Below are positions 216 to 20,975 of a stretch of DNA of 21,063 nt, piece by piece. A program made the translations under genes and the position numbers. The stretch's first letter is position 1; each line of letters starts with the position of its first letter. Source of the stretch: a virus; the IMG/VR virus record IMGVR_UViG_3300033155_000948, positions 1 through 21,063 of that record; one strand, given 5' to 3'. The notes beneath the pieces were generated by a model. It ran no database searches and was not told where the DNA came from. It saw nothing but the letters and a program-made list of their open reading frames with translations.

Positions 216-223
216 GATAAATA
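216..223 (+). promoter_or_regulatory. Putative late promoter, leaderless, for the HNH gene
   Basis: GATAAATA lies exactly six bases before the ATG at 229, so a T4-type start site would coincide with the first base of the start codon. No Shine-Dalgarno sequence precedes the ATG. The same spacing recurs before 3635, 12035, 13780 and 20217. Confidence 0.55.
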
Positions 224-231
224 TATTTATG
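224..231 (-). promoter_or_regulatory. Putative late promoter for the gp47-like gene
   Basis: Read on the minus strand this is CATAAATA, a T4-type late -10 element. With the T4 geometry (+1 six bases after the last A) transcription would begin near 218 and run into the gp47-like gene. It is one half of a perfect 14-base palindrome shared with the plus-strand promoter. Confidence 0.4.
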
Positions 232-792
232 AATGATAACATTATTATAATTAAAAGACAAGATGCTAAGAACATAAATTTAAGATACTATTATACTGGA
301 AAAGAATGTATACATGGTCATATTGATTACCGATATACAATTTCTGGTAAATGTTTAACTTGTCAGAAGAAACAAAGTAAGCAATGGAATAGTGATCATA
401 ATGAAGAAATAGTACTAAAAGCTAAATCACCAGAAGCAAAAAAACGTGCTAAAGCTAAGTATGAAGAAAATTATATAAAGAATCATACATACTGGTTGTG
501 GAAGGGATTAAAATCAAAATCTAAAAGAAAAAACATACCTTTCATTATAGAAGTAAAAGATATCATTATACCCGAAAATTGTCCCATACTTGGAATAAAA
601 TTAGTAATTAACAAATCACATGGAAAAGATGATAGTCCTTCTGTTGATAGAATTATACCATCTTTGGGATACATACCATCCAATATAATTGTTATAAGTT
701 ATAGAGCAAACAAGATAAAGAACAATGCAACTATAGATGAATTAGAGAAAATATATAACTTTTATCATAATCTTCAATCTAGATCATCATAA
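229..792 (+). CDS. HNH-type (free-standing, probably homing) endonuclease
   Basis: A 187-residue protein. The N-terminal part has a small zinc-ribbon-like cluster (C27, H29, H31, C42, C45 in the context YYTGKECIHGH and KCLTC). The C-terminal half has the pattern seen in many phage HNH-like endonucleases: W-x-L, ENCPILG near 116-122, then PSVDRIIPSLGY and NIIVISYRANKIKNN (about 137-166). It probably cuts DNA and promotes its own spread. It is the only plus-strand gene between two minus-strand replication/transcription genes, and its 3' end overlaps the gp55-like gene by 19 bases, which suggests a late arrival. I use the ATG at 229; an in-frame TTG at 214 overlaps the promoter-like GATAAATA. 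The exact HNH subfamily is uncertain. Confidence 0.68.
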   Translation: MNDNIIIIKRQDAKNINLRYYYTGKECIHGHIDYRYTISGKCLTCQKKQSKQWNSDHNEEIVLKAKSPEAKKRAKAKYEENYIKNHTYWLWKGLKSKSKRKNIPFIIEVKDIIIPENCPILGIKLVINKSHGKDDSPSVDRIIPSLGYIPSNIIVISYRANKIKNNATIDELEKIYNFYHNLQSRSS

Positions 793-1208
793 TTTTGACC
801 AGATGAATGTTTTTCTTGGAAGTTTAGTGATGGATTATAGCTATTGTCTACCAGAAGTTGATCACGAATTTCTTGTTGACGTTTTTCTTTATTGAGAATT
901 TGAATGAAAGCATTGTGATTGATGCTGGTGAAGTATGCGAATGGATTCTCACTCTTACCAGAATCAAATTTATGGAGTGCAGCAACACATGCCACAATAC
1001 CACTGTTTATCATTTCTATTTTGTAACTGTATCCTGAAAAATTAGGTTTAGTCGCATAACGTGTTGCTAAAATCATAAACATTTTACCTAACTTGTCTGA
1101 TACTTTATTTTGTTTTTGGCAGATTATTAATTCAGCAAACATTTCCTTGTTGCTTAAATATCCTTCTTCTTTTTTTTTGTTTCTTTTTCTTTTTTTAGGT
1201 TCAGACAC
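774..1208 (-). CDS. 55: gp55-like sigma factor for late transcription
   Basis: A 144-residue protein starting at a GTG (MSEPKKRKR...), with a strong AAGGGGG four bases upstream. Residues 57-112 match the core of T4 gp55: FSGYSYKIEMINSGI, then LHKFD, NPFAYFTS, NHNAFIQ and a basic NKEKRQQ. In T4 this small divergent sigma directs host RNA polymerase to TATAAATA promoters and works with the gp45 clamp through its C-terminus. It is shorter than T4 gp55 (185 residues) and begins with a very basic stretch. A PSLNF at 126-130 resembles the PSLDF of the T4 clamp-binding tail but is followed by 14 further residues. The last codons overlap the HNH gene on the other strand. Late-promoter sequences throughout the window agree with this call. 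Confidence 0.85.
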   Translation of the reverse strand: MSEPKKRKRNKKKEEGYLSNKEMFAELIICQKQNKVSDKLGKMFMILATRYATKPNFSGYSYKIEMINSGIVACVAALHKFDSGKSENPFAYFTSINHNAFIQILNKEKRQQEIRDQLLVDNSYNPSLNFQEKHSSGQNYDDLD

Positions 1209-1252
1209 ATTGCCCCCTTATAACCATAGATAAGATTAGTATAACAAACATT

Positions 1253-1260
1253 ACTAAATA
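1253..1260 (+). promoter_or_regulatory. Putative late promoter for the 63-residue gene
   Basis: ACTAAATA matches the CTAAATA variant of the late promoter known from T4-like cyanophages. The expected start near 1266 would leave a 24-base leader containing AGGA at 1277-1280 before the ATG at 1290. It is interleaved with the opposing minus-strand promoter. Confidence 0.4.
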
Positions 1261-1270
1261 AGTATATTAC

Positions 1271-1278
1271 TATTTATA
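1271..1278 (-). promoter_or_regulatory. Putative late promoter for the gp55-like gene
   Basis: The minus strand reads TATAAATA, the exact T4 late consensus. The expected start is near 1265, 57 bases before the GTG of the sigma gene. If real, the late sigma factor would also be transcribed by its own holoenzyme (positive feedback). Confidence 0.45.
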
Positions 1279-1289
1279 GGATTAAGATT

Positions 1290-1481
1290 ATGAAAAAATA
1301 TACAAATATGGATTCCCAAATGCAATGTGTTGAATTTGAAGGTGTAGCTCAATTTTTACGCAGAGGTCAATCGGTAACGAATGATTTAAAAACTATTCGT
1401 GTACCCAAAGGTGTTTTAGTTGAGGATGTTGTTGAAACTAAGCAATCAGAAACCAAAAAAACCACTAAAAGAAGAAAGTAA
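1290..1481 (+). CDS. Small unknown protein upstream of the sheath gene
   Basis: A 63-residue ORF with AGGA nine bases before the ATG. The centre (VEFEGVAQFLRRG, then IRVPKGVLVEDVVE) looks like a small beta-rich domain. The last 14 residues are almost all Lys, Arg, Thr, Ser and Glu. There is no membrane segment or signal peptide. It is expressed toward the sheath gene and lies between two promoter-like sites, so a late structural or assembly role is possible, but I do not recognise the family. Confidence 0.6.
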   Translation: MKKYTNMDSQMQCVEFEGVAQFLRRGQSVTNDLKTIRVPKGVLVEDVVETKQSETKKTTKRRK

Positions 1482-1502
1482 AGATACTATTTCGTCGAAA
1501 AT

Positions 1503-1538
1503 CCTAAATAACAATATAAGAGAATAATATTATTTAGG
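1503..1538 (+). promoter_or_regulatory. Late promoter nested in an RBS hairpin upstream of the sheath gene
   Basis: CCTAAATA (1503-1510) is a late-promoter variant with expected start near 1516. CCTAAATAA (1503-1511) and TTATTTAGG (1530-1538) are perfect inverted repeats with an 18-base loop. The 3' arm takes in AGG of the Shine-Dalgarno AGGAG (1536-1540). Read-through RNA could fold and hide the ribosome-binding site, while RNA begun at the late promoter lacks the 5' arm. Confidence 0.5.
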
Positions 1539-1549
1539 AGAAATACATA

Positions 1550-3022: not shown

Positions 3023-3040
3023 GATTAGGAGAAATATAAA

Positions 3041-3541: not shown

Positions 3542-3593
3542 TAACAACACCCTTAACGTCACTCAGCGAAACGCACCATATAGGGTTACTTTG

Positions 3594-3618
3594 GGGAGCA
3601 GCAATGCTCCCTTTTTTT
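3594..3618 (+). terminator. Intrinsic terminator after the tube gene
   Basis: GGGAGCA and TGCTCCC form a perfect 7-bp stem closed by a GCAA (GNRA) tetraloop and followed by seven T. It lies about 50 bases after the tube stop and just before the next late promoter, so it separates the sheath-tube unit from the baseplate genes. Confidence 0.9.
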
Positions 3619-3621
3619 ATG

Positions 3622-3629
3622 GATAAATA
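3622..3629 (+). promoter_or_regulatory. Putative late promoter, leaderless, for the second tube gene
   Basis: GATAAATA begins four bases after the terminator's T-run and ends exactly six bases before the ATG at 3635, placing the expected +1 on the start codon. An in-frame reading upstream is stopped by TAA inside the motif, so the motif is not coding here. No Shine-Dalgarno sequence is visible. Confidence 0.6.
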
Positions 3630-3634
3630 AAGTT

Positions 3635-4201
3635 ATGGGATTTGATATAGATAACATTCGTGATAAAGCACACCAGCTACGCAATCTTAAAGATGCTGCT
3701 GGTAGTCTTTATTCAGGGGCAATTGAAGACTTTCTTCCTAAGAATCCACAAAAAACATATTTGTGGGATATAGACATAATTGGTGATAACACCAACATTA
3801 AAACATATGCTAAGTCAATAGTTATACCACAAGCAAGCATAGAACCTATTGTTGTTAACTATATGGGTGAACGAGTATTTTATGCTGGTAAGGAAACTTC
3901 GGCTAAAACAGTAGTCATTACATTTTGGGATGATGAACGTGGAACTATATTAAGATACCTTGAAAATTGGTTTACACAAGTTCATGAAAACGAAACAGGT
4001 CACATGTTAGCTGAAAGAGAATACAGACGAACAATTAAACTAATGTTAACTGACAGTACTGATTTATCTAATACTTCTATTACAGAGTTATCAGGTGCTT
4101 TTATTATAGACATTGCAGAAACACAATTATCATATGAGACTTCTGATGTTATTGAAATAACAGCAACGTTCCAATATGAATTAAAGGATATTTCAATATG
4201 A
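3635..4201 (+). CDS. Second tail-tube-fold protein (gp19 paralogue)
   Basis: A 188-residue protein whose residues from about 37 repeat the layout of the tube protein: KTYLWDIDI, TYAKSIVIPQASIEP, VNYMGERVFYAGKET, ITFWDDERGTILRYLENW and QLSYETSDVIEITATFQYE. The first 35 residues are an added, probably helical, N-terminal segment. It likely caps or initiates the tube at the baseplate or closes it at the head-proximal end, but sequence alone cannot say which. Its stop overlaps the start of the next gene (ATGA), implying translational coupling. A second copy of the major tube subunit is the alternative. Confidence 0.75.
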   Translation: MGFDIDNIRDKAHQLRNLKDAAGSLYSGAIEDFLPKNPQKTYLWDIDIIGDNTNIKTYAKSIVIPQASIEPIVVNYMGERVFYAGKETSAKTVVITFWDDERGTILRYLENWFTQVHENETGHMLAEREYRRTIKLMLTDSTDLSNTSITELSGAFIIDIAETQLSYETSDVIEITATFQYELKDISI

Positions 4202-4872
4202 CATATAACATAGCAGAGGTTATGTCACAGAAACGCAACGATTCGCCAATGCGTAGTTATTTGTGGAGAGTATTATTACCCGATCTTACCATTGGATTAC
4301 AAAATAATGGTGTGACGTATGGGGATGGTGTTAGTAATGCAAAAGATTTATTTTCTGGTGCTAACAAAATCAATCATGATTTGAGTACACGTATTGTAAA
4401 CATGTCTATACCGTTTAGTACAGTGGAAACTGACAAAGGTATAAAAGGTAATTCCTTTTGGTATTATGCAAAGAGTAATGATATTGGTAGCATAAATTTT
4501 GAAATGCATGAATATGAAGATGGATTAACATTAAAATATATTCAAGCATGGCAAAATCTTATGTTTAATAGTGATGGAACATATAATGCACCTTCTGTAT
4601 ATAAGAAAGATATCATGTTTTACCGATTGAGTTCTAATAAAGAAGATGTGGTAATCCACACATATAATGATTATTTTATAAGTGGTGTTGCTGATATTAG
4701 TAATGATTATGAAGGAAATGATATAGTCCGATATGCTGTTAGCTTAACGGGTGATTCAGTTGAACATCGGATAGTTGGATTGGATGATCTCAAAAACGTA
4801 GGTTCATTAGACAAAACATTAGATGATTTAGGGTCTATATTAAGTATTGGTAACATTGCTAACCTATTTTAA
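4198..4872 (+). CDS. Tube-fold baseplate protein, probably gp54-like tube initiator
   Basis: A 224-residue protein with a diverged tube-like core: SYLWRVLLPDL, a long insertion at about 40-60, TRIVNMSIPFSTVET, INFEMHEYEDGLTLKYIQAWQ, then DVVIHTYNDYFISGVADI and RYAVSLTGDSVEHRIVGLDD. T4 gp54, which starts the tube on the baseplate, has the same order (a KMPENRL strand, a residue-packed helix at a W, then a final beta pair) and a similar hydrophobic C-terminal tail. The end here (LDDLGSILSIGNIANLF) would suit such a tail. The start overlaps the previous stop by four bases, with AAGGA nine bases upstream. The gp54 assignment is by pattern only. Confidence 0.55.
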   Translation: MTYNIAEVMSQKRNDSPMRSYLWRVLLPDLTIGLQNNGVTYGDGVSNAKDLFSGANKINHDLSTRIVNMSIPFSTVETDKGIKGNSFWYYAKSNDIGSINFEMHEYEDGLTLKYIQAWQNLMFNSDGTYNAPSVYKKDIMFYRLSSNKEDVVIHTYNDYFISGVADISNDYEGNDIVRYAVSLTGDSVEHRIVGLDDLKNVGSLDKTLDDLGSILSIGNIANLF

Positions 4873-4876
4873 ACTT

Positions 4877-10052: not shown

Positions 10053-11269
10053 TGGCTGAAAGCAAAAAAACAGTAGTATTTGAAGAAGAATGGAAAGATA
10101 ACTTTTATATGAAGTTAGAATCTGATCATGACACTGCTGCGTCTGGTTTACAAGTTAGTAGTATTGGTATAACCGAAACATTATCTACTGGTTCTCCATT
10201 CTTAGTATTACGTATGCAAGATGCCTTTGGTGATTTGATTAATCATACTTATATTTCACCTGATGCTGATTATGATTTGTATATAGGAAAAGACAGAAAC
10301 GAAAATTCAAAAAGTTCTTTTTCTATCTCGGTTAACAACATGGGGAATATGACCAATGGTAAAGCTGACAGTATTGCATTAGATTTAACTTTTATGAATA
10401 GTAAGTGGGACAAATTTCTAAGAGACACTACATCACGTTCATGGAAAGACAAAAGATATAGTGATGTTGTTAAAGAAATAGCAACAGAAAATGGTTTTGG
10501 TATTACTGATATAGAAGACACCGATGGTTTGTACGATATCATTCAGCCTAATTGGAGTAACCTAAAATTCATTAAATGGTTATCAAAGCAATCAAAAAAC
10601 ATTGCTAGAATTGGTGGATATGATTTTGGATTAACATTAGATGATAGATTAATTTTTACTTCATTAGATTCTTTGTACAACAAGAAACCAGTCAAGTCTG
10701 TAATTCTTGCTACTCCTGATGATGAAAGTGTGGGTTTGGTTATTAGTACGTTTAACATTAAACAAGATTATGCACCTATGATGATACAAGGTGCTGGTGG
10801 TCTAAGCTACACTTATTTTGATTATGATAAGAAAGAATATGTTACTGGTACTAAAACTATCAGTGATACCAATTCACGTCAATTATCTGATTGGTCGTTT
10901 ATAGCAGAAGAACATAATACTGCAAAGAAAGTGTTCGATGGTGGTAGAGACACTAACACTCCTACTGTTGCTGAATCCAGAATTACTAATGCTGCTAATT
11001 CTATCCAGAAGATAACTGTTAATACACAAGGCGATATTGGCATTCATGTTGCAGACATCATTGATATAATTATACCATCATCAGAGTATTCTAAGACAGT
11101 AGTGAATGAAAAGTATTCTGGTCGTTGGATGGTTGGCAAAGTTTTACATAATATTGATTTTGATAATAAGTCATTTCAATCAAATCTTACACTTATTCGT
11201 GCTGGTATTAATGGTACTGAACTTAAAGGATTAGTTAAAACCAAGAAAGGAAAACAAATAGGTAAATAA
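10052..11269 (+). CDS. Baseplate hub protein (gp27/gpD-like)
   Basis: A 405-residue hub protein. The central part (RYSDVVKEIATENGFGI, then YDIIQPNWSNLKFIKWLSKQSKN at about 135-183) is the conserved layout of gp27/gpD/gp44 hub proteins: a short helix that binds the previous strand, then 'Q...SDLxFLxxLA'-like residues. The beginning (about 35-115) is a beta domain and the end (IHVADIIDIIIP, RWMVGKVLHNIDF, NLTLIRAG) is the closing barrel that links tube and spike. In the virion a trimer would sit between the tube and the spike encoded at 12781. The start overlaps the gp53-like stop by one base. Confidence 0.72.
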   Translation: MAESKKTVVFEEEWKDNFYMKLESDHDTAASGLQVSSIGITETLSTGSPFLVLRMQDAFGDLINHTYISPDADYDLYIGKDRNENSKSSFSISVNNMGNMTNGKADSIALDLTFMNSKWDKFLRDTTSRSWKDKRYSDVVKEIATENGFGITDIEDTDGLYDIIQPNWSNLKFIKWLSKQSKNIARIGGYDFGLTLDDRLIFTSLDSLYNKKPVKSVILATPDDESVGLVISTFNIKQDYAPMMIQGAGGLSYTYFDYDKKEYVTGTKTISDTNSRQLSDWSFIAEEHNTAKKVFDGGRDTNTPTVAESRITNAANSIQKITVNTQGDIGIHVADIIDIIIPSSEYSKTVVNEKYSGRWMVGKVLHNIDFDNKSFQSNLTLIRAGINGTELKGLVKTKKGKQIGK

Positions 11270-11273: not shown

Positions 11274-12002
11274 ATGAAATTGAGTGTATTAATGGAACGT
11301 ATGAACCTTCGGGCAGCAGAAGATAATGTTGATGAAATGGAAGATGCTTATGATGAATTGGCATTACTGAATCGTGCGTTTAAAGAAAACGATCTTGGTA
11401 TCCTAATTAATAAACATGGTGATAATCTTAATCAAAATGATGTACGTGAAATTAAACGTAAGTTAGCTGGTATTGTAAGAAACAATCCTATCATTGATGG
11501 TTCTGAAGTTAATAGAGGTCGTGATGGATATGAAAAATTACGTCTTATTGGACGTGGTGTTGGTCATGGTTTGGAACTTGCTGCAACAGGTGCATTAACT
11601 GCTGCTTTAGGATCATTAGCGGTATCATCTGCTGCTGTCCCTATAGCTTCAGTGTTAAGTGGTACAGCAGCAGTTGGTACAGCAGCATTAGCTAAAAATC
11701 AATACAATATTATCAGAAGTTTAAAAGCAACTTCCAGATTATTAACAGCACTGGATGCTTATGAAGACTTAAAACCAAAAGCAAAAAGACGTTCACTCTT
11801 TAAACAATTTTTAGATTTTATTACTCGTAAGTCTAAAGATGAAATTAAAAAAGATGCATTAAAGAGAATCAAAAAAGCAAGTATTAAAGCACAGCGCAAA
11901 TTTGAAAAGAGTATAAAAGGATTTCCTAAATATATTGATTTCAAAGATTCAAAAGGAAACCAACAACAAGTATCAATAGCAACATTATTCGATGATTTGT
12001 AA
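11274..12002 (+). CDS. Unknown protein with Ala/Gly-rich hydrophobic hairpin
   Basis: A 242-residue protein without a recognised family. It has a charged helical N-terminus (1-95), then a 44-residue Ala/Gly/Ser-rich hydrophobic stretch (98-141: GLELAATGALTAALGSLA, SSAAVPIASVLSG, TAAVGTAALA) with Gly at intervals as in glycine-zipper membrane helices. A Lys-rich helical region (166-216) precedes a short acidic end. It lies between the hub and spike genes, the position of gene 28 relative to 27 in T4, but similarity to gp28 is not evident. A role at the distal tip or in crossing the host inner membrane would fit (inference). The start is the ATG at 11274, five bases after the hub stop. Confidence 0.62.
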   Translation: MKLSVLMERMNLRAAEDNVDEMEDAYDELALLNRAFKENDLGILINKHGDNLNQNDVREIKRKLAGIVRNNPIIDGSEVNRGRDGYEKLRLIGRGVGHGLELAATGALTAALGSLAVSSAAVPIASVLSGTAAVGTAALAKNQYNIIRSLKATSRLLTALDAYEDLKPKAKRRSLFKQFLDFITRKSKDEIKKDALKRIKKASIKAQRKFEKSIKGFPKYIDFKDSKGNQQQVSIATLFDDL

Positions 12003-12021: not shown

Positions 12022-12047
12022 GATAAATACTATTATGTATATTTATC
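12022..12047 (+). promoter_or_regulatory. Late promoter, leaderless, with start-codon hairpin (endonuclease 1)
   Basis: GATAAATACTATT (12022-12034) matches the T4 late consensus apart from the first base and ends right at the ATG 12035, which is the expected +1. GATAAATA (12022-12029) is also perfectly complementary to TATTTATC (12040-12047), so read-through RNA could place the start codon in a 10-base loop, whereas promoter-initiated RNA could not fold this way. Confidence 0.6.
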
Positions 12048-12733
12048 TCATCACAAATTCAGTTAATAATAAGAAGTATATTGGACAAACTGTGCGTGAT
12101 TACAAAAAACGTTGGAAAAGTCATATTTATTCTTCCAAAAATCCAAAATATACAATTCATATGGCAATGAGAAAAAATGGTATTTCGCAGTTCCATTTCG
12201 AAGTCATTGATGAATCAGCTTCTGATCTTGATGAACTCAATGATTTAGAAGAATTCTATATCTCATTCTATGATACGTATAAAGGTGATGGATATAATTC
12301 TACTTCTGGTGGTGGAGGATATGAAGTATCTGATGAAACCAGACAAAAGTTATCTGTATTAAATACTGGTAAAACTCATTCTGATGAATCCAAAAATAAA
12401 ATATCAACAACATTGAAGGGTAGAACTCTTTCAGAAGAAACTAAAAAGAAAATGTCAGAATCTGCTAAAGGTAAAACTCCTTCTGTTAAAACCAGACAAA
12501 AAATGTCAGAAGCAAAAAAAGGTAAAAAACATCCCATGTATGACAAACTTGGAATATTAAACCATAACTCTAAAAAGGTAATTCAGATAGATAAGATCAC
12601 CAGTGAAGAAATCATGTGTTGGTTTTCTATGAGTGAAATAAAAAGAGAATTAGGAATACCCCAACCAAAAGTATCAATGTGTTGTAAGGGCAAATTAAAA
12701 TCAGCAGGTGGATTCAAATGGAGATATTTGTGA
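12035..12733 (+). CDS. GIY-YIG homing endonuclease, copy 1
   Basis: A 232-residue free-standing homing endonuclease like the T4 Seg family. Residues 1-90 are the GIY-YIG nuclease domain: MYIYLITN and KKYIGQT (the GIY and YIG strands), the following Arg, HMAMRKNG, FEVIDE and the acidic LNDLEEFYI. Residues 97-165 hold several NUMOD3-type DNA-binding repeats (GKTHSDESKNKIS, GRTLSEETKKKMS, GKTPSVKTRQKMS). The end (KKVIQIDKITSEEI, CWFSMSEIKRELG, GGFKWRYL) is a NUMOD1-like helix-turn-helix. I start at 12035, not the in-frame ATG at 12020, because the latter overlaps the late promoter and the other copies align from MYIY. It separates the Ala/Gly-rich gene from the spike gene. Confidence 0.88.
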   Translation: MYIYLITNSVNNKKYIGQTVRDYKKRWKSHIYSSKNPKYTIHMAMRKNGISQFHFEVIDESASDLDELNDLEEFYISFYDTYKGDGYNSTSGGGGYEVSDETRQKLSVLNTGKTHSDESKNKISTTLKGRTLSEETKKKMSESAKGKTPSVKTRQKMSEAKKGKKHPMYDKLGILNHNSKKVIQIDKITSEEIMCWFSMSEIKRELGIPQPKVSMCCKGKLKSAGGFKWRYL

Positions 12734-12780: not shown

Positions 12781-13752
12781 GTGTACAACCAATTAGTTGA
12801 CAGAGAAAAATCTACTGATAGATTTGATGGTTTTTATAGGGGAGTGGTGATTGATGTCAGTGATCCTACAGAAAGTGGTCGCATTCGCATTAAGGTTTAT
12901 CCTATGTTTGAGCATGTTGATGACGATGTTCTTCCTTGGGCTATTCCTGCTGATTCAACATTTGGTGGATCGGCAAATGTAGGAAGTGCCGCAGTACCTA
13001 TCGTTAACAGTCATGTATTTTGTTTCTTTGAGAATGGTGACTTCCGTTATCCTGTATATTTTGCTTCTGCTCCTGCAATACAAAATGATGTACCAGACAT
13101 TCCTACGTTATCAAGGAAGGATGATGGAACTGTAGTTGCGATTAATGCAGCACGTTCACAAAACGTTTCTGATGCGTTTGGTGGAACATGGAGTGAACCT
13201 GTCAGTGCATATGCTGCAACTTATCCAAAGAACAAAGTGTTTAGAAGTGAAACGGGGATCATTATAGAAATAGATGATACTCCTAATAATGTAAGATTTC
13301 ATGTTTATCATCCTAGTGGAACAAGAACAGAAGTTGATAATTCTGGTAATACCGTAGAACACGTAGCTGCTACGAAAACTACTGTAATTATAGGTGATGA
13401 TAATATTGAAGTAAAAGGTGATCAAAATACTACAGTCGGTGGTAGTCATGGTGTAAAAGTTGGTAGCAATGGTAAAGTTGATATTATTGGTAGTTATGAT
13501 ATTACTGTGGGTGCTACTTGTACAATAAATGTAACAGGAAATACCACACTGACAACACCACTTGCTACTATTAATGGTAATGTACAAGTAAATGGAACTG
13601 TTAGTTCTACTGGTGATATTAGTTCTGATTCTGCTATGAGTGCTGGTGGTAATGTATCTAGTGGTGCTGTTATTTCTGACAGTACAGGTTCTATGCAGGA
13701 TATGAGGGACACTTATAATGCTCATTCAACACATCCACCTAATGATATGTAA
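12781..13752 (+). CDS. Baseplate spike protein (gp5/gpV-like), no lysozyme
   Basis: A 323-residue spike. Residues about 17-105 are the OB-fold of gp5/VgrG proteins (GFYRGVVIDVSDPTESGRIRIKV, LPWAIPADS, VNSHVFCFFENGDFRYPVYFA). Residues about 155-185 (KVFRSETGIIIEIDDTPNN) and the following repetitive VEVKGD, TTVGGS, GVKVGS and DIIGSYDITVG form the three-stranded beta-helix of a membrane-piercing needle. The C-terminus AHSTHPPNDM resembles the His-containing metal-binding tip of P2 gpV-type spikes. No lysozyme domain lies between OB-fold and needle, unlike T4 gp5 (575 residues). The GTG start at 12781 has only a weak ribosome-binding site; an in-frame TAG at 12772 rules out earlier starts. It sits between two homing endonucleases. 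Confidence 0.82.
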   Translation: MYNQLVDREKSTDRFDGFYRGVVIDVSDPTESGRIRIKVYPMFEHVDDDVLPWAIPADSTFGGSANVGSAAVPIVNSHVFCFFENGDFRYPVYFASAPAIQNDVPDIPTLSRKDDGTVVAINAARSQNVSDAFGGTWSEPVSAYAATYPKNKVFRSETGIIIEIDDTPNNVRFHVYHPSGTRTEVDNSGNTVEHVAATKTTVIIGDDNIEVKGDQNTTVGGSHGVKVGSNGKVDIIGSYDITVGATCTINVTGNTTLTTPLATINGNVQVNGTVSSTGDISSDSAMSAGGNVSSGAVISDSTGSMQDMRDTYNAHSTHPPNDM

Positions 13753-13766
13753 TGTAAGTTTAAATT

Positions 13767-13774
13767 GATAAATA
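13767..13774 (+). promoter_or_regulatory. Putative late promoter, leaderless (endonuclease 2)
   Basis: GATAAATA ends six bases before the ATG at 13780, so the expected +1 is the A of the start codon. It lies 15 bases after the spike stop. No Shine-Dalgarno sequence precedes this ATG. Confidence 0.58.
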
Positions 13775-13779
13775 AGATT

Positions 13780-14472
13780 ATGTATATATATTGCATAACA
13801 AATTTAGTTAATGATAAGAAATATGTTGGTCAAACTATTCGTGATCCAGATGTAAGATGGTATGAACACAAATATAATGCTAATAATGATTGTGTTTATT
13901 ATATACATCGTTCTATGAGAAAATATGGTTCTACTAATTTTCAGTTTGAAGTGATAGATGAATCTACTAATAACATTGATGAACTCAATGATTTAGAGGA
14001 ATTCTATATTTCATTTTATGATACGTTTAAAGGTCATGGGTATAATCTTACATCTGGTGGAGACAGTTTTGTTATGTCTGAAGAAACCAAAGAAAAACTG
14101 AAACAAGTGCATTTAGGTAAAAAATTGACAGATGAACACAGACAAAAATTATCAGAATCACAAATAGGAAGAAAACATTCTAAAGAAACTAGACAACGAA
14201 TGGTGGAATCTCGTAAAAATATAATTTTATCTGAAGATTCTAAGAGGAAAATATGGGAAGCCAATTTAGGTAAAACTGGATTTCAATCAGGATCTTCAAA
14301 AAAGATAATTCAGATTGATAAAAATACTGGTATGGAAATAGCTTGTTGGTTTTCAACAAGATGTGCTGCAATATTTATAGGAAAAAATCTAACATCAGGT
14401 ATATCTAAGGTGTGCAAAAATCAACGTAAAACTGCTGGTGGATTCATTTGGAGATATGTTGATGCCTGTTGA
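13780..14472 (+). CDS. GIY-YIG homing endonuclease, copy 2
   Basis: A 230-residue paralogue of copy 1. The nuclease domain (MYIYCITN, KKYVGQT, MRKYGSTNFQFEVIDE, DELNDLEEFYISFYD) keeps the GIY-YIG strands and the acidic residues. NUMOD3-like repeats occupy about 98-165 (GKKLTDEHRQKLSES, GRKHSKETRQRMVES). The last 50 residues (KKIIQIDKNTGMEIACWFST, GISKVC, GGFIWRYVDAC) form the NUMOD1-like end, slightly diverged at AAIFIGKNL. Its last 11 bases overlap the gp25-like gene, and the WRY codons contain the GGAG that serves that gene. I prefer the ATG at 13780 over the in-frame TTG at 13765 because the latter lies in the promoter motif. Confidence 0.87.
   Translation: MYIYCITNLVNDKKYVGQTIRDPDVRWYEHKYNANNDCVYYIHRSMRKYGSTNFQFEVIDESTNNIDELNDLEEFYISFYDTFKGHGYNLTSGGDSFVMSEETKEKLKQVHLGKKLTDEHRQKLSESQIGRKHSKETRQRMVESRKNIILSEDSKRKIWEANLGKTGFQSGSSKKIIQIDKNTGMEIACWFSTRCAAIFIGKNLTSGISKVCKNQRKTAGGFIWRYVDAC
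14450..14453 (+). promoter_or_regulatory. Ribosome-binding site of the gp25-like gene inside endonuclease 2
   Basis: GGAG in the Trp-Arg codons of the endonuclease C-terminus lies eight bases before the ATG at 14462. This spacing favours 14462 as the gp25 start over the ATG at 14456, which is only two bases away. Confidence 0.6.
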
Positions 14473-14881
14473 TCCGAATAGCGGCCTTAATAAATTCAAA
14501 ATAGAACTAACCGAAGTTTATAGTGATCTTGATTTTGGTCTTAAAAAAAATACAGCAGGTAATGTTGTAATAGTCAAAAATAATAATTGTATTAATCAAT
14601 CTATTAAAACTATTTTATCAACAACACCCGGCGAACGTATAATGCTGCCTGAATTTGGTAGTAATTTAAAAGAGTACGTATTTGAACCATTAGATTTCTC
14701 AACAAAGGAATTAATTATAGCTGAAGTAGAACTCGCATTAGAACGTTGGGAAGACAGAATTTCAATATATGATGTGCGTGTTGAAGAATTAGAAGATGAT
14801 AATATTTTGACGCTTACCGTAGAGTATTCAATTAATGAAACTGGTGAAGTTGATAATTTTATCGGAAAAATAAAACAATAA
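14462..14881 (+). CDS. 25: Baseplate wedge protein gp25-like
   Basis: A 139-residue protein of the GpW/gp25 family (T4 gp25 is 132 residues). gp25 sits in the wedge core and is where the sheath begins to polymerise. Family features are MPVDPNSGL, DLDFGLKKNTAGNVV, NNNCINQSIKTILSTTPGER (the usual 'NPxxGER'-type turn), MLPEFGSNLKEYVFEPLD and the final NILTLTVEYSI. The gene begins inside the end of endonuclease 2 and uses a ribosome-binding site in that gene; its own stop is 13 bases before endonuclease 3. The gp25-gp6 order, with an endonuclease between, matches T4-like and P2-like baseplate modules. Confidence 0.88.
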   Translation: MPVDPNSGLNKFKIELTEVYSDLDFGLKKNTAGNVVIVKNNNCINQSIKTILSTTPGERIMLPEFGSNLKEYVFEPLDFSTKELIIAEVELALERWEDRISIYDVRVEELEDDNILTLTVEYSINETGEVDNFIGKIKQ

Positions 14882-14884
14882 ATA
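14877..14884 (+). promoter_or_regulatory. Putative late promoter (endonuclease 3)
   Basis: AATAAATA overlaps the stop codon of the gp25-like gene, with expected start near 14890, only five bases before the ATG at 14895. AGGA at 14886-14889 would lie upstream of that start, so promoter-made RNA would have almost no leader while read-through RNA keeps a Shine-Dalgarno sequence. Confidence 0.45.
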
Positions 14885-14894: not shown

Positions 14895-15572
14895 ATGTAT
14901 ATATATTTGATAACAAATTTAACGAATTTTAAGAAGTATGTTGGTTTGACTACTGAAAAGAAACCAGTAATTAGATGGAATAGACATAAAACAGAAACTA
15001 CCGCTGAGTCTACATGTGCTATTCACTGCGCTATGAGAAAATACGGTATTGATAACTTTCAATTCGAAGTCATAGACGAATCTGCTAACAACATTGATGA
15101 ACTCAATGATTTAGAGGAATTCTATATCTCATTCTATGATACGTTTAAAGGTAATGGATATAATTGTACATCAGGTGGAGGTAGTTTTATTATGTCTGTC
15201 GAAACTAAAAAGAAAATGTCAAGGAATATGTTAGGAAAATTAAATCATATGTATGAAAAAAAACATTCAGAAGAATCAAAACGAAAAATGTCTGAATCAC
15301 GAACGGGCAAACTTAATCATTTTTATGGTAAGATATTTTCTAAGGAATATCGGAAGAAATTATCAGAAGCACATCTTGGTAAGTTTTCGGGGTTATCTAA
15401 TATTCTGTCTAAGAAAGTAATTCAAATTGATAAAATAACAAATAAAGAAATAGCTTGTTGGTTTTCTATGTGTGAAGCAGCAAAAGAATTAAATATAAGT
15501 GATAGTAATATATCACAGGTGTGTAGAGGACTACGTAATACCACTGGTGGATTCAGTTGGAGATACATGTAA
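14895..15572 (+). CDS. GIY-YIG homing endonuclease, copy 3
   Basis: A 225-residue paralogue of copies 1 and 2. GIY-YIG strands (MYIYLITN, KKYVGLT), MRKYGIDNFQFEVIDE and LNDLEEFYISFYD are intact. Repeats GKLNHMYEKKHSEESKRKMSE and GKLNHFYGKIFSKEYRKKLSE are NUMOD3-like; the ending KKVIQIDKITNKEIACWFSM, CEAAKELNISDSNISQVC, GGFSWRYM is a well-kept NUMOD1-like helix-turn-helix. The YIG strand reads YVGLT rather than YxGQT. It has AGGA five bases before the ATG. Its stop shares a base with the start of the gp6-like gene (TAATG), and the GGAG in the Trp-Arg codons is that gene's ribosome-binding site. Confidence 0.88.
   Translation: MYIYLITNLTNFKKYVGLTTEKKPVIRWNRHKTETTAESTCAIHCAMRKYGIDNFQFEVIDESANNIDELNDLEEFYISFYDTFKGNGYNCTSGGGSFIMSVETKKKMSRNMLGKLNHMYEKKHSEESKRKMSESRTGKLNHFYGKIFSKEYRKKLSEAHLGKFSGLSNILSKKVIQIDKITNKEIACWFSMCEAAKELNISDSNISQVCRGLRNTTGGFSWRYM
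15559..15562 (+). promoter_or_regulatory. Ribosome-binding site of the gp6-like gene inside endonuclease 3
   Basis: GGAG formed by the Trp-Arg codons of the endonuclease end lies nine bases before the ATG at 15572. It is the only Shine-Dalgarno-like sequence for the gp6-like gene. Confidence 0.6.
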
Positions 15573-18500
15573 TGGCTAATTTTGACTACACAAAATATTC
15601 ATATGATGAATTGGTGCAAGAAGTTACCAGATTGGTATCAGCGAAAGATGAGTGGAAAGATGCTTATATGAGTTCAACGGGTCAAGTGTTGATTCAAGTT
15701 GTAGCTGCTATCACTGATCAGATGATGTACATGCTTGAGCGTAGAAGTCAAGAAAATTTCTTACCTACTGCAAAATTAGAAACATCTGTTAATGCTATCG
15801 TAAATTCTATTGGTTATAGACCACGAAGAAAAGTATCTGCATTAGGTACACTTTCATTAACATTAGTTGATGGTAATGGTATTCCGGTACAAAACACGGA
15901 CACTATCACTATACCAAAATATTCAAAATTAACTTTTGGTGATGATGTTTTTGTTAATACTGATGATATTACATTGCTCTCAACACAAGTATACCCATAT
16001 ACATTTATTATAAAAGAAGGTACTTTAATTTCATTAACATATGATCCTTCTGATATTACTGGTTCTTTGTATCTGAATGACTATATAGAAATTGAAGATT
16101 ATTTGAATATAGAGAATACAAGTTTTTACATTTATACAGCCACTCAAACATTCACAGATGTTATAGAACGGGTTGGTGATGAAGCACCTATTGATTCTTT
16201 AAGTTTCGCAGAGGCAACTGATGAAGTATATGATCTTAATAATACCAATAATGGATTAAGATTGTTATTTGGTGATGGTACTTCTGGTGAAAAGCCAACG
16301 GGTATATTAACTGTAAAATACATAGAATCTTCTGGTAATTCTGTTGAAGTTCTAACTACTGATAATAATTTTGTATTTGATGATTATGCCACAGAGCTAA
16401 TTGATGCTTCATCAGATACATACAAATATACTTTAACTAACACAACTACGATTGATAGTGGGTTAAATGAAGAAACAATTGATGAAGTTAAGAAAAACGC
16501 ACCTTCGTATGTCAGGACAGCTAATAGAGCAGCATCTAAAAATGATTATATTTTTTGGGTGAACAGATCTGGTATTGGTGGTATTGTTGATTCTAATGTT
16601 TATGGTGAAGAAGAAATTGGTATATCTGTCATTAATGCTAATAATGTTTATATTATATATTTAACTAATGATGGATTAGCATTGTCTTCTAATGAGTTAT
16701 CAATATTAGACAACTATGTTGATAACTATAAAATTGTTACATCACAAACAATATACGAAGCAGCAACAGTAATACCATTACAAATTGAATTGAAAATAAA
16801 ACGTAGTCCTACATTAACCGCGTCAAGCAGTGAAATTTATGATGTCCTTAAGAATGATATGGTAGATTATTTTGAATTTGCCGAAGGTACTTTAGGTAAA
16901 AATACCAATCATTCTGAAGTAGTCGATCACTTCCATCTTTTAACAATTGTAAAAAATGGTATAACAAGATTAATTTCTGATTATATCAATATTGATATCA
17001 AAGCATTATATGCTTTTTCTACTCCTTGGGAATCAATTCAAGATATTGATATCACCTTTACTTATGGTGCAGATGGTAATGTTTATACTATTCTTCTTAA
17101 TGATGTTCCATATTCATATACAGCGCAAGGTGGTGATACTGTAACAGAAGTTGTTGGTAAATTATTACAATATATTAGTTTAGATTTGAATGTTATTCCT
17201 TCTGTTGTGTCTAACGTCATTACGTTAGCAAGAGACAATAGTACTGCTGAAAATTTATTAATTCATAGTGAAGAATTAGATGATGCTGTATGGTCACTTA
17301 CTGGTACTATGACTATAACACCTGATGCTGATGTTGCACCTAATGGATTAACTGTTGCAACAACATTGAATGATACTGATGCAGTAATCACATCTAATAT
17401 TTTACAAACAGCATCAATGACGTTAGATAATAATTATAAAACCGTTTCGGTGTTTATTAAAAAAGATTCTGACACGTCAAGATTCCCTGCTTTATATATA
17501 AAACAAAGTGGTGGTAGTTCAATACAATCTTTCGTTTCAATAAACACACAAACAGGTGCAACTGCATGGATTTCTGGTTCAGTCCCAACTATTGTCACTG
17601 ATGATTTTATTGATTATTGGAGAATTAGTGTCACGTTACAAAATAACATAACTAACAATGTGGTTGAAATGGGTTTATATCCTGCTTATTCAAGTACATT
17701 AGGTGGTGCTGCTGACGGTACATTAACAGGGACTATAACAGCATTTGGTTTACAAGCTGAGAACAAAGGTGCTGTTGGAAAATATATAAGAACAACTTCA
17801 AAACCATTATTATTAACATACGGCGAACGTGCTATTGAAAACAGATTACTATATAACGAAGAATTAAATAATACTGTATGGATTAAAACAGGTACTACAA
17901 TAACACCAGATTCTCTTAATGACTCTGATGGTTTTTTAACTGTTGATACAGTTACATTTGCTGGTTCTGCCGCAGGAGAAACGGTATCACAAACAATAAA
18001 CAATATACATAGTGGTACTGCCTATACTTTTGGTTGGAGAGCACAAGAAGGGTCATTAAGCACAGCGGGGTTTGGAGCATATGATGTCACAAATGCTGCA
18101 TGGATTGTTGATCCAGCAACTACCATAAAAACATATACTGCTACTTTAGATTTATATGAAGAATCATTCGTTGTACCAGAAACATGTACTTCTATCAGAA
18201 TTCATCCTGTATACAAAGATAATACCGCAGGGACAGTTTATGTTGGGCAATCCCATTTAAGAATAACTGCCAATTCAAACGATTATATACAAAGTCATGA
18301 AAAACAATCATTTTATTATGATGAAGGATTCTTCATTACAAATACAGGAACAACAATTCTTGCTAATGCTGCAATTAATATACCAGTACAATTACCATTA
18401 TCTGTTCTTAATAATCCAGAAAGTAATCAATTATTCTATCCAAGTAGTATAGAAATTATTGAAACAGATGGAACTATTATTGCAACAGATGATGGTGCAG

Positions 18501-18706
18501 GAAATATTTATGGTGGTACAGTTGATTACATAACAGGTGTAGTAACAATTCCACTTTTAGCAGATGATGATTATTATATAAGATATCAACAGAACGTTGA
18601 ACAAAACTTTACTTCTAATGAAAGACAAGCATTCTCATATTCTTTACCAAAAACTAATTATGTTGATGTCACTGAACTTTTATCGACTATTGAGATTATT
18701 AATTAA
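15572..18706 (+). CDS. gp6/gpJ-like baseplate wedge protein with carbohydrate-binding-like insertions
   Basis: A 1044-residue protein, much larger than T4 gp6 (660). The N-terminal half (about 1-470) is the gp6/gpJ wedge: DAYMSSTGQVLIQVVAAITDQ, MLERRSQENFLPTA, LETSVNAIVNSIGYRPRR, later LRLLFGDGTSG, NAPSYVRTANRAASKNDY and VIPLQIELKIKRSP. Around 475-555 is an Ig-like stretch. Two related beta domains follow, starting NLLIHSEELDDAVW (residue 561) and NRLLYNEELNNTVW (757). They look like the 'NLL-xx-SEEF-xxxxW' jellyroll modules of phage tail fibres, so they may bind glycans. The last 130 residues are a beta domain ending SYSLPKTNYVDVTELLSTIEI. The start is set by GGAG and the TAATG overlap with endonuclease 3. 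Confidence 0.78.
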   Translation: MANFDYTKYSYDELVQEVTRLVSAKDEWKDAYMSSTGQVLIQVVAAITDQMMYMLERRSQENFLPTAKLETSVNAIVNSIGYRPRRKVSALGTLSLTLVDGNGIPVQNTDTITIPKYSKLTFGDDVFVNTDDITLLSTQVYPYTFIIKEGTLISLTYDPSDITGSLYLNDYIEIEDYLNIENTSFYIYTATQTFTDVIERVGDEAPIDSLSFAEATDEVYDLNNTNNGLRLLFGDGTSGEKPTGILTVKYIESSGNSVEVLTTDNNFVFDDYATELIDASSDTYKYTLTNTTTIDSGLNEETIDEVKKNAPSYVRTANRAASKNDYIFWVNRSGIGGIVDSNVYGEEEIGISVINANNVYIIYLTNDGLALSSNELSILDNYVDNYKIVTSQTIYEAATVIPLQIELKIKRSPTLTASSSEIYDVLKNDMVDYFEFAEGTLGKNTNHSEVVDHFHLLTIVKNGITRLISDYINIDIKALYAFSTPWESIQDIDITFTYGADGNVYTILLNDVPYSYTAQGGDTVTEVVGKLLQYISLDLNVIPSVVSNVITLARDNSTAENLLIHSEELDDAVWSLTGTMTITPDADVAPNGLTVATTLNDTDAVITSNILQTASMTLDNNYKTVSVFIKKDSDTSRFPALYIKQSGGSSIQSFVSINTQTGATAWISGSVPTIVTDDFIDYWRISVTLQNNITNNVVEMGLYPAYSSTLGGAADGTLTGTITAFGLQAENKGAVGKYIRTTSKPLLLTYGERAIENRLLYNEELNNTVWIKTGTTITPDSLNDSDGFLTVDTVTFAGSAAGETVSQTINNIHSGTAYTFGWRAQEGSLSTAGFGAYDVTNAAWIVDPATTIKTYTATLDLYEESFVVPETCTSIRIHPVYKDNTAGTVYVGQSHLRITANSNDYIQSHEKQSFYYDEGFFITNTGTTILANAAINIPVQLPLSVLNNPESNQLFYPSSIEIIETDGTIIATDDGAGNIYGGTVDYITGVVTIPLLADDDYYIRYQQNVEQNFTSNERQAFSYSLPKTNYVDVTELLSTIEIIN

Positions 18707-20205
18707 TGTCTTTACAAGATAACTTAAAAAAATATTTACCTCAATCACAACAAGGTAATTTGTCTTTAGATGAATTTATGGATAGTATTGGTGAACTTCT
18801 TGATAATTTTAAAACAGCTATTGATGATTTTCAAACATACAATGATTTTGCATTAATCAAAGAATCACAATTAGATAATTTAGCTAAACAGTTTGATGTA
18901 GAATTCCCACGTAATATGTCTGATGAAAGAAAAAGACATTATTTAAGAGATGTGGTAACTCTTTATCGTTCTAAAGGTACTAAGAAATCATTAGAACGTG
19001 TGTTTAGATTAATTGGTTGGGAAGTTGAAATTAAAGAATATTGGATTGTTAATCCAGATTGGTATGCTTCCCCTTCTTCTATATATACACTTACCAATGA
19101 ATTAGGAGCAACATTTGATTTAGGTTTATATGATACTATTAATGGTGATAATGAATATTACCGAAATGATAAAATTTATATTGATTTAGTTGATCTTCAA
19201 GGTAACATATACCCACAAAGACAAATATATGGATCTTCATATAAAGTAATTGATCTTGTAAATTTTATTAAAGTTCCTTATGTAAAAATTTCAGTAACAT
19301 CCGAAGATTTTGATTTATTCACTGCACCATATGTTGAAGATGGTAATGCATATTCGTATGATAATACTGAAGAATTTGAAATACTTACTTACATACGCGA
19401 ATATTTCTTAGATAGAATTCGTCCTGCAAATGTGGCAATTCTTGAAATATCAACACCATTCCAATTATCAGACTCATTTGTATTCTTTGTTCATTCTGAT
19501 ACTGGCGGTGCGAGTCTATCAGGTACACCAAACATATCATTTAATAATGCTGATCCTTACACAATCACAAGGGATGCTGGTGATTTCAGCACTGATGGGT
19601 TCTTACCAGAATCCTACATCAATATTACAGGATCTATTAGCAATAATGACAGATTTAAAATTAGATTAGTTGGAGCTACCATATTAACACTCTATTATGA
19701 AAATCCTTTAGTAACTGAATTAACTGTTGCTGGTGTTTCTATTACAGATGAAGGACAAACATTAACAACACAAAATACTGGTGCTCAGTATGATGGGACA
19801 CTTGCATATGGTGTATTAATTGATCGATATATTTTAGGTGAGACTATGGGTAATTTTCAATACGGAAATAACACTATGGACTATTATGGAGTAAGGGAAG
19901 ACGCACCTGATGAATCAGTCCCACGTAGTTATACAATTGGGACTTCTGGTAATCAAAATAGAATTCCATTACGTAAGAATTCTGATATTGTTGTTACCGT
20001 ACCAGCAGATGCATCTATCACAATTTATGCAACAAAGGATTCTCATAATACAGTACTTACTGGTAGTCCTACTTGGGTTATTATAGCAACAGGTGTAACA
20101 AATGTTGTAAGTCAAACACATGTTCTGGCTGATTATTTCTCAACTTTTATCAAGGTTGACACAGCATCTTCAACAACAATAGACGTTACCGTAAATCTAT
20201 ATTGA
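18706..20205 (+). CDS. Baseplate wedge protein of the P2 gpI type (gp7 role)
   Basis: A 499-residue protein. Residues 20-115 match the tail protein I family: FALIKESQLDNLAKQFDVEF, DERKRHYLRDVVTLYRSKGTKKSLERVF and RLIGWEVEIKEYW. About 225-250 (YIREYFLDRIRPANVAILEI) is the usual end of that domain. In P2 gpI binds gpJ in the wedge; in T4 gp7 pairs with gp6. The direct gp6-like neighbour and TAATG overlap fit. The rest is added: residues 269-348 form a module also found in the next gene, and about 360-499 are a further beta region (YGVLIDRYILGETMGNFQYG, then Ser/Thr-rich strands). Confidence 0.72.
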   Translation: MSLQDNLKKYLPQSQQGNLSLDEFMDSIGELLDNFKTAIDDFQTYNDFALIKESQLDNLAKQFDVEFPRNMSDERKRHYLRDVVTLYRSKGTKKSLERVFRLIGWEVEIKEYWIVNPDWYASPSSIYTLTNELGATFDLGLYDTINGDNEYYRNDKIYIDLVDLQGNIYPQRQIYGSSYKVIDLVNFIKVPYVKISVTSEDFDLFTAPYVEDGNAYSYDNTEEFEILTYIREYFLDRIRPANVAILEISTPFQLSDSFVFFVHSDTGGASLSGTPNISFNNADPYTITRDAGDFSTDGFLPESYINITGSISNNDRFKIRLVGATILTLYYENPLVTELTVAGVSITDEGQTLTTQNTGAQYDGTLAYGVLIDRYILGETMGNFQYGNNTMDYYGVREDAPDESVPRSYTIGTSGNQNRIPLRKNSDIVVTVPADASITIYATKDSHNTVLTGSPTWVIIATGVTNVVSQTHVLADYFSTFIKVDTASSTTIDVTVNLY

Positions 20206-20211
20206 TAAATA
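20204..20211 (+). promoter_or_regulatory. Putative late promoter, leaderless, for the peripheral baseplate gene
   Basis: GATAAATA overlaps the stop of the wedge gene and ends six bases before the ATG at 20217. It is the fifth example of the exact spacing that puts the expected +1 on the start codon, again without a Shine-Dalgarno sequence. Confidence 0.58.
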
Positions 20212-20216
20212 AAAAC

Positions 20217-20975
20217 ATGAATAGTAATTTTATAGATAACGTTTTACCTGAAATGTCTGGTTTATTTGAAATCAAAACAATTGACAAATTAACAGGTAAA
20301 ATTATTGATGAATACGAAGAAAAAAACGTCATTGTTATTGATTCAAAAGAAGCAATCATAAACGCTATATCAACATTAACAAATGATGGTGTTATCGAAG
20401 TATTGAAAATTGGTGGTGATGTTGGTGATCCAGTATCAATGCAAGGTTCACCAAATCTTAATTTCGCAGATCTTGATCCTGATACTATCACACGAACTGC
20501 TGGTAGTTGGATTGATGACGGGTTCATTGATGAAATGACATTAACTATAACCAGTTCTGTTAGTAATAATGGAACATTTACCGTTGATGCTGTAACTACA
20601 TCAACTCTTACGTTAATTGCAACAGATTCACTAGTTGATGAAAGTGGTACTTCAGGTGTATCAGTAATTGGAACACCTTCATTGAATAATCCAATACCAC
20701 CATTAGACACATTTAATAGTAGTTCGATGTCACTTGTATATACATCACCAGATACTTTTACTCTTGGTTATTCTAATCCAACATCAGTCACATTTAGTGT
20801 GACGATTGATGGTGTAGACGTGATGACTTATTATCCATTAGATATAACAAAGACTATAACAAGTGCAGCATTACATACAGGTAATACTAAGGTATTTGCC
20901 TATAAAAGATTTCCACAAAAATCAGTTTCAGCATTAGTTGATATTTTGATTAACTGGACAATAAAATTTGATTAA
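20217..20975 (+). CDS. Peripheral baseplate or tail-fibre-like protein
   Basis: A 252-residue protein. The start (GLFEIKTIDKLTGKIIDEYEEKNVIVIDSKEAIINAI) resembles the N-terminal attachment region of many phage fibre and collar proteins, where a strand pair ends in 'NxIV' before a helix. Residues 75-151 form a module shared with the preceding wedge protein (GSPNLNFADLDPDTITR, DDGFIDEMTLTITSSVSNN). After a Pro-rich joint (NNPIPPLDTFNSSS), residues about 170-252 are a beta domain (SVTFSVTIDGVDVMTYYP, KVFAYKRFPQ, INWTIKFD). It probably decorates the baseplate rim. I prefer the ATG at 20217; an in-frame TTG at 20202 lies in the promoter motif. Function is inferred from context. Confidence 0.6.
   Translation: MNSNFIDNVLPEMSGLFEIKTIDKLTGKIIDEYEEKNVIVIDSKEAIINAISTLTNDGVIEVLKIGGDVGDPVSMQGSPNLNFADLDPDTITRTAGSWIDDGFIDEMTLTITSSVSNNGTFTVDAVTTSTLTLIATDSLVDESGTSGVSVIGTPSLNNPIPPLDTFNSSSMSLVYTSPDTFTLGYSNPTSVTFSVTIDGVDVMTYYPLDITKTITSAALHTGNTKVFAYKRFPQKSVSALVDILINWTIKFD

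Follow-up and report, generated by a model that had tools for sequence, protein, structure and literature searches.

We analysed a 21,063-nucleotide stretch of viral DNA (IMG/VR virus record IMGVR_UViG_3300033155_000948; this whole stretch is the window below) and consider it very probable that T4-type gp55 late promoters in the window and in some other phages are positioned to start transcription on the A of the ATG, which would give leaderless late mRNAs. The reading is based on an exact spacing between promoter box and start codon, its conservation, its restriction to certain branches, the lack of Shine-Dalgarno sequences, a pyrimidine at -1 and, at one gene family, predicted terminators. 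In the mechanism we propose, the sigma factor gp55 would read the box and transcription would start on the start-codon A, so that the late mRNA would begin 5'-AUG, with neither leader nor Shine-Dalgarno sequence, and the ribosome would start on this 5'-terminal AUG. Efficient translation of the gene would then depend on its own late transcript, read-through RNA being a poor template, and late-only expression would be achieved in 13 bases, an arrangement that structural genes and inserted homing endonucleases appear to use alike. We define spacing as the number of bases between the end of the box and the ATG, such that at spacing 5 the ATG begins on the sixth base. An excerpt of the T4 literature numbers the late box from -13 (PMC2988020), which makes the sixth base after the box +1; with the box at -13 to -6, a spacing of 5 therefore puts +1 on the A of the ATG.

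All five plus-strand copies of GATAAATA in the window are followed by five bases and an ATG (Table 1), as the initial annotation had recognized, and these ATGs open reading frames of 187, 188, 232, 230 and 252 codons, respectively. The pattern with six spacer bases has no match in the window, the actual spacing being five, and the sixth copy of GATAAATA lies on the minus strand (12040-12047), within the first GIY-YIG gene and not at any start. In 1000 dinucleotide shuffles, GATAAATA-N5-ATG (N5 being any five bases) occurred 0.069 times on average and at most twice, so this control bears out the annotated pattern. Shuffles scored without the condition of an open reading frame (ORF) gave a mean of 0.42 and a maximum of 2 for the window (5 observed), 0.86 and 6 for its relative G001 (10 observed), and 2.0 and 4 for the phage HTVC008M (9 observed). 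We regard chance combined with selective reading of an AT-rich genome as extremely improbable: the number of GATAAATA copies is indeed unremarkable (6 against 3.0 expected, with at least 6 in 7 of 100 shuffles), but the shuffles and the distribution of spacings among the relatives reject this explanation. No plus-strand copy of ATAAATA in the window lies wholly within a gene (0/8, two overlapping an upstream stop codon), whereas six of the eight minus-strand copies are antisense inside plus-strand genes; the earlier remark that plus-strand genes are free of the motif is thus right for the sense strand. It had also been said that other box variants mostly keep a leader, which stands for ACTAAATA (+29), CCTAAATA (+39), AATAAATA (+22), TATAAATA (+29) and a second AATAAATA (+10) but not for GGTAAATA at 11261, an overlooked case in which N5 and an ATG follow as well.

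Relatives of the window extend this picture. Named relatives are distant (the top-ranked sheath match has 36.9% identity, and all 2687 matching records fall below 60%), and no DNA-level match of the window was found among phage records. In IMG/VR, scanning with the sheath protein retrieved 11 loci, and a single-protein scan with the tube paralogue gave L009 only. We take the window, G001, L002, L003, L005, L006 and L007 as its clade, which holds 84 NATAAATA boxes. Spacing 5 is found at 23 of them (22 distinct, as the L002 site repeats one of G001), spacing 6 at four, one before an ORF cut by the contig end, spacings 7 and 10 once each, and spacings 0-4, 8, 9 and 11-17 never; a second, broad mode lies at about 18-40. 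Compared with other spacings, then, the one singled out in the initial annotation prevails by 23 to two (spacings 0-4 and 7-17 together).

The spacing is also conserved at individual genes. The tube-paralogue box stands at N5 in the window, L001, L004, L005, L006, L007 and L009, which are all the clade loci with the gene. These represent five independent sequences, L009 (98% identical to the window) and L001 being near copies of the window and of L004, and L001 and L004 being of G001 type; tube relatives in Slickus01 and G005 (22-31% identity) were excluded as too distant. Across the five, the bases before the ATG vary (aagtt, tagtt, gtggt, ataga, atgat). The genes at 20217 and 11274 keep spacing 5 in G001, the latter with GGTAAATA. 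The fixed elements are therefore the five-base spacing and the ATG, while the five bases themselves and the base at -13 vary. The proposal of one promoter-start cassette survives in part: the A of the ATG as +1 is strongly supported, but GATAAATA as an invariant element is ruled out, because C, T and A at -13 also occur at N5 (CATAAATA, TATAAATA, AATAAATA and GGTAAATA all do so) and because GATAAATA serves leadered genes in G001 (spacings 24, 19, 28, 23 and 24). G at -13 is found in 14 of 22 spacing-5 promoters of the clade and 6 of 25 leadered ones (Fisher p 0.0085, in a comparison chosen after the data were seen). At the clade's spacing-5 sites this G is usually preceded by T (TGATAAATA), and it is possible that gp55 reads a TG element there.

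Where transcription would start can be judged from base composition. At leadered boxes, excluding promoters that also stand at spacing 5 or 6, the sixth base is a purine in 19/19 cases in Melnitz (neighbouring bases 11 and 12), 19/19 in syn9 (11 and 13) and 23/30 in T4 (11 and 16). At the spacing-5 sites, a pyrimidine precedes the ATG in 20 of 23 cases, compared with 13 of 29 leadered genes (p 0.003) and 61 of 148 other genes (p 6e-5), where the starts of the comparison genes were picked partly by Shine-Dalgarno strength. Transcription usually starts at a pyrimidine-purine step, and the pyrimidine at -1 thus agrees with a start on the A. Identical sites were counted once in the pyrimidine, purine, -13 and Shine-Dalgarno counts and in the survey of 146 contigs described below; the 84-box count keeps them.

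The absence of Shine-Dalgarno sequences, which had been claimed for the five GATAAATA genes and holds for all five, extends to the clade. A first comparison was biased, because its comparison starts were picked partly by Shine-Dalgarno strength, and was redone with starts chosen by position only, a pairing threshold of -4.5 kcal/mol or lower, and L002 (a near copy of part of G001) excluded. Shine-Dalgarno sequences were then found in 0 of 22 spacing-5 genes and 16 of 23 leadered genes of the clade; among leadered genes elsewhere they were found in 5/5 in HTVC008M, 13/19 in Melnitz and 23/28 in T4. The start codon at spacing 5 behind ATAAATA is ATG in 34 of 34 cases. A-rich upstream regions substitute for Shine-Dalgarno sequences in some bacteria, and ATAAATA five bases before an ATG could be such a translation signal instead of a promoter. 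We think this very unlikely: the octamer resembles the gp55 late box and the phage encodes gp55, the same box also stands 18-40 bases before genes that have a Shine-Dalgarno sequence, and roughly half of the remaining genes in these phages, or more, have one (with starts picked partly by it).

Terminators and divergent genes bear on whether the boxes could be little-used internal promoters. In the window and the six clade loci with the tube paralogue, a predicted intrinsic terminator ends 0-4 bases before its box. The stems (-8.9 to -13.7 kcal/mol) vary in sequence among loci, and two HTVC008M genes likewise have a predicted terminator abutting the box. Because upstream RNA should largely end there, the tube-paralogue mRNA would begin within about 20 bases of the AUG, a stretch without a Shine-Dalgarno sequence. 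Divergent pairs that include gp2 leave 25 (G001) and 26 (HTVC008M) bases between start codons and have, on each strand, a spacing-5 box whose strength varies; such back-to-back late boxes lie at 18540-18575 in L012 and 18916-18943 in HTVC008M. Were these genes translated instead from read-through RNA, by coupling or from an in-frame TTG, ATG or GTG 15 bases upstream, one might expect such codons at -15, and they do occur at 11 of 40 sites, including four of the five GATAAATA sites of the window; two boxes, and GGTAAATA at 11261 likewise, also overlap an upstream stop codon. But 29 of the 40 sites have no such codon, the terminator precedes the tube paralogue in every clade sequence that holds the gene, the GIY-YIG domain (PF01541, in both GIY-YIG 1 and GIY-YIG 2) begins at residue 1 of the downstream start, and coupling is impossible for the gp2 pairs. 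We accordingly consider translation from read-through RNA improbable, and reject the upstream in-frame codon as the true start, given that only 11 of 40 sites have one.

Beyond the clade, the arrangement is found in some T4-type phages and absent from most. Counting boxes at spacing 5 before a 50-codon ORF, HTVC008M has 9 of 45 (with spacing 7 once and 8 twice) and Melnitz-2 has 3 of 42 (with spacing 0 once, 2 twice and 16 once), RHph_TM30 has 1 of 35 and the distant IMG/VR record G005 1 of 65; there are none in T4 (0/65), syn9 (0/38), Slickus01 (0/50), phiKT1024 (0/117) or Carin-5 (0/51), nor in the distant IMG/VR records L010 (0/3) and L008 (0/2). We also counted ATAAATA-N5-ATG without the ORF condition, with the reversed pattern as control. 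The ratio is 9:1 in HTVC008M, 8:0 in Mosig, 4:0 in Melnitz-2 and 2:0 in RHph_TM30, while it is 3:3 in P-SSM2, 2:2 in P-SSM4, 1:1 in each of syn9, Slickus01, Carin-5, phiLo and Apostate, 0:2 in KVP40 and NCTB, and 0:0 in GR11A and pf16. Spacings 4, 5 and 6 occur 1, 9 and 1 times in the whole record of HTVC008M, 1, 8 and 1 times in Mosig, and 0, 4 and 2 times in Melnitz-2. In HTVC008M, all 12 spacing-5 ATGs (9 behind ATAAATA, 3 behind CTAAATA) are annotated starts of coding sequences, for a 2OG oxygenase, CsgF, a cyclase, the tape measure, gp2 (DNA end protector), head closure, the tail tube cap, a baseplate wedge protein, the wedge initiator, a tail completion protein, a transcriptional regulator and a hypothetical protein after the major head protein. 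Both branches have the arrangement at gp2 (G001, HTVC008M) and at the tape measure (L007, HTVC008M), and probably also at gp25, whose spacing is 5 in HTVC008M but 6 in G001 and L005; the HTVC008M and L005 genes were assigned to gp25 by eye only.

Spacing 5 is not a general trait, as only nine of 435 boxes in 146 other gp55 contigs (1.6 Mb) have it. A FastTree tree of 121 gp55 sequences with midpoint root places spacing-5 sites in 4 of 4 window-clade tips, 7 of 13 HTVC008M/Melnitz tips and 2 of 104 others, although the tips carry about 4 to 190 kb of sequence and zeros from short contigs mean little. The repeat records L105, L106 and L111 were omitted from the contig count and the tree, and L001, L002, L007, L009, L012 to L019 and L254 also from the tree; dropping identical sequences and gp55 of fewer than 80 residues reduced 157 sequences to 121, with L003, whose gp55 is identical, representing the window. 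Cyanophage relatives near HTVC008M show no spacing-5 excess, and the trait was therefore probably gained at least twice or lost repeatedly. We think it likely that in two separate T4-type branches leaderless late mRNAs form a regular class, whose gp55 promoter sets the translation start as well. In L201, L227, L245 and L253, of the HTVC008M branch, a gene of 206-208 codons near gp55 with an MT(I/T) start has a spacing-5 box.

Several observations weigh against the leaderless reading. Two of nine spacing-5 genes of HTVC008M and one of three of Melnitz have Shine-Dalgarno-like sequences, a looser count finds one in 1 of 23 clade genes, and syn9, which lacks spacing 5, is also Shine-Dalgarno-poor (4/16 leadered genes). 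The exclusive use of ATG is weak evidence, as leadered genes also begin with ATG in 28 of 29 cases, and 5'-end folding of spacing-5 genes is only marginally lower (p 0.05 in the clade, 0.32 in HTVC008M, 0.70 in Melnitz). A predicted terminator is found at one of the window's five GATAAATA boxes and not at the other four. One counted G001 site (51565) falls within another gene; a ACTAAATA site of G001 at 69014, outside the 84-box count, opens an uncalled ORF. The ratio of pattern to reversed pattern is 5:0 in phiKT1024 and 2:0 in T4, with none of these matches opening a 50-codon ORF, and the four matches of Melnitz are attained by shuffles (maximum 4). Weaker CTAAATA/GTAAATA boxes stand at spacing 5 once in the window, twice in G001 and three times in HTVC008M, but are less telling because the same is seen once each in T4, phiKT1024, Carin-5 and L010; in Melnitz and HTVC008M such boxes also stand once each at spacing 5 before GTG or TTG. 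The purine signature is unsharp in the clade (17/25 at the sixth base, neighbours 12 and 12, but 16-20/25 at bases 8-13), and there is no clear peak in phiKT1024 (29/40, neighbours 23 and 32), Slickus01 (13/18) or HTVC008M (5/8). The last point, together with spacing 6 at four clade sites and for gp25 in G001 and L005, is what one might expect if transcription started just upstream of the ATG, leaving a very short leader of 1-4 nucleotides on a functionally near-leaderless mRNA. We consider this unlikely as the general case, because the peak is exactly at 5, spacings 7-9 are nearly empty in the clade, and the frequency of pyrimidines at -1 is that expected for +1 at the A, but at the four spacing-6 sites a one-nucleotide leader or a one-base shift must be allowed.

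The arrangement also recurs at inserted homing endonucleases. Seven homing endonucleases were met in the clade, from no systematic search (the window's HNH gene and three GIY-YIG genes, two in L003 and one in G001/L002, for which the best G001 family match is labelled NAD synthetase and homing endonuclease comes second), and six of them stand at spacing 5, with G, C or T at -13. In G001, the junctions of the 242-aa gene with gp5 and of gp25 with gp6 have no insert and no box, and the L003 insertion site has no insert and no ATAAATA box in the window. Judged by these comparisons, box and insert seem to have arrived together at three sites, the spacing being 5 at two and 10 at GIY-YIG 3. Between gp5 and gp25, G001 has gp25's own GATAAATA-N6-ATG where the window has GATAAATA and then GIY-YIG 2, and here the box may have been taken over from the target gene. 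It is also possible that insert and box were lost together in the relative instead of gained together. GIY-YIG 2 separates the gp25 start codon from the site that holds the late promoter of gp25 in G001 (13752-13800 and 14457-14480), a possible case of promoter capture. The 3' ends of GIY-YIG 2 and 3 (14440-14480 and 15540-15590; TGG AGA TAY, W-R-Y) carry a GGAG that lies 8-9 bases ahead of the gp25 and gp6 start codons, so that each insert seems to provide a ribosome-binding site for the gene that follows it.

In T4, the textbook case of late transcription, the mRNAs carry leaders. The promoters described here share with T4 late promoters (gp55, TATAAATA) the octamer box, a phage-coded gp55 and, at some genes, ordinary leaders, and the G-, C-, T- and A-ATAAATA and GGTAAATA boxes at tail and other genes match this type in sequence. 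They differ in that -13 is often G in the window's clade and in that 23 of 84 clade boxes, as against none of T4's 65 NATAAATA boxes (one CTAAATA does so), stand at spacing 5. I-TevI and segB of T4 and mobE of Aeh1 are likewise late-read homing endonucleases, presumably untranslated from upstream RNA. An excerpt on T4 describes a late transcript that keeps its Shine-Dalgarno sequence and a hairpin that hides it in longer or early RNAs (PMC2988022), whereas the window's HNH gene and GIY-YIG 1 and 2 have only a box and five bases and no Shine-Dalgarno sequence. Leaderless initiation has also been proposed, in an excerpt on mycobacteriophages, for an HNH endonuclease hidden in methylase genes (PMC11855218). 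That gene is likewise a homing endonuclease suggested to be translated without a Shine-Dalgarno sequence, but as described there its start codon is a GTG within a longer transcript and has no promoter of its own at that point, whereas here a late box is fixed before an ATG. The mRNA of lambda cI is leaderless, and resembles those proposed here in its 5'-terminal start codon and lack of a Shine-Dalgarno sequence. The same likeness holds for leaderless mRNAs of bacteria, described for mycobacteria in an excerpt (PMC4633059), and in the AR9 paper, also as excerpted, phage transcripts are often leaderless; what would set the present mRNAs apart is their link to the late class and to a dedicated sigma factor of the phage. 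A leaderless late class in gp55 phages is apparently undescribed among the full-text matches listed, which leave most subscription journals outside their coverage, and in the excerpts of the Melnitz and Mosig papers "leaderless" stands only in a reference title. If this class is real, a 13-base promoter-start junction drives virion genes (gp2, gp25, tape measure) without Shine-Dalgarno sequences, translation is limited to genuine late transcripts, and inserted homing endonucleases gain a ready-made site for late-only expression. A late promoter doubling as translation start would couple the sigma-factor switch to a changed mode of translation, leaderless initiation could be put to the test with the virion genes of phages in culture (HTVC008M, Mosig), and start codons and promoters could be called better in related phages.

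Table 1. Late boxes, candidate leaderless genes and related features of the window.
Feature	Position	Strand	Remarks
Late box GATAAATA, N5 = tattt, then ATG	216..223	+	
HNH/endonuclease VII-like gene, probable homing endonuclease, predicted leaderless	229..792	+	phrog_3322 endonuclease, 1e-31
gp55-type late sigma factor	774..1208	-	phrog_234 late sigma transcription factor, E 1.1e-33; presumed reader of late boxes
Predicted intrinsic terminator, directly upstream of tube-paralogue promoter	3593..3618	+	stem -12.2 kcal/mol
Late box GATAAATA, N5 = aagtt, then ATG	3622..3629	+	
Tail tube paralogue gene, predicted leaderless	3635..4201	+	phrog_45 tail tube, 2.3e-20
Weaker box GGTAAATA, overlaps upstream stop codon, N5, then ATG	11261..11268	+	spacing kept in G001
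Unknown-function gene (242 aa), candidate leaderless	11274..12002	+	no PHROG or Pfam hit
Late box GATAAATA, N5 = ctatt, then ATG	12022..12029	+	absent at corresponding G001 junction
GIY-YIG homing endonuclease 1, between 242-aa gene and gp5, predicted leaderless	12035..12733	+	PF01541
Late box GATAAATA, N5 = agatt, then ATG	13767..13774	+	at position of G001's gp25 GATAAATA-N6-ATG
GIY-YIG homing endonuclease 2, between gp5 and gp25, predicted leaderless	13780..14472	+	phrog_314, 2e-43; PF01541
Late box AATAAATA, 10 bases before GIY-YIG 3 ATG	14877..14884	+	exception: 5-nt leader expected
Late box GATAAATA, overlaps upstream stop codon, N5 = aaaac, then ATG	20204..20211	+	
Unknown-function gene 3' of tail protein gene, predicted leaderless	20217..20975	+	phrog_5417, 8e-05

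A T4-type tail and baseplate cluster with inserted endonucleases takes up much of the remaining window. Its gp55 is 34% identical to those of HTVC008M and syn9. The HNH gene has no Pfam hit and is not common to L004, whose blastn alignment with the window begins at 773. The T-run of the terminator ends 3 nucleotides before the box, and the scan that predicted it found one in the window against 0.5 in shuffles. The 242-aa gene has a 72% identical relative with the same spacing in L004. For the box at 20204, the five bases in G001, where the spacing is retained, are caacc; the gene behind it has a 71% identical relative in L013, and its earlier label as fibre-like is unsupported, with no Pfam hit and a PHROGs family of unknown function only. 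At 216-231, box and start together form a near-palindrome (GATAAATATATTTATG) that also yields a minus-strand CATAAATA box; some 50 bases downstream of this box, near 172-174, a minus-strand ORF starts. The start of gp5 at 12781, adjoining the GIY-YIG 1 insertion, is apparently GTG, compared with ATG in G001. A third tail-tube-related gene (4198-4872; phrog_45, 3e-13) follows the tube gene and its paralogue.

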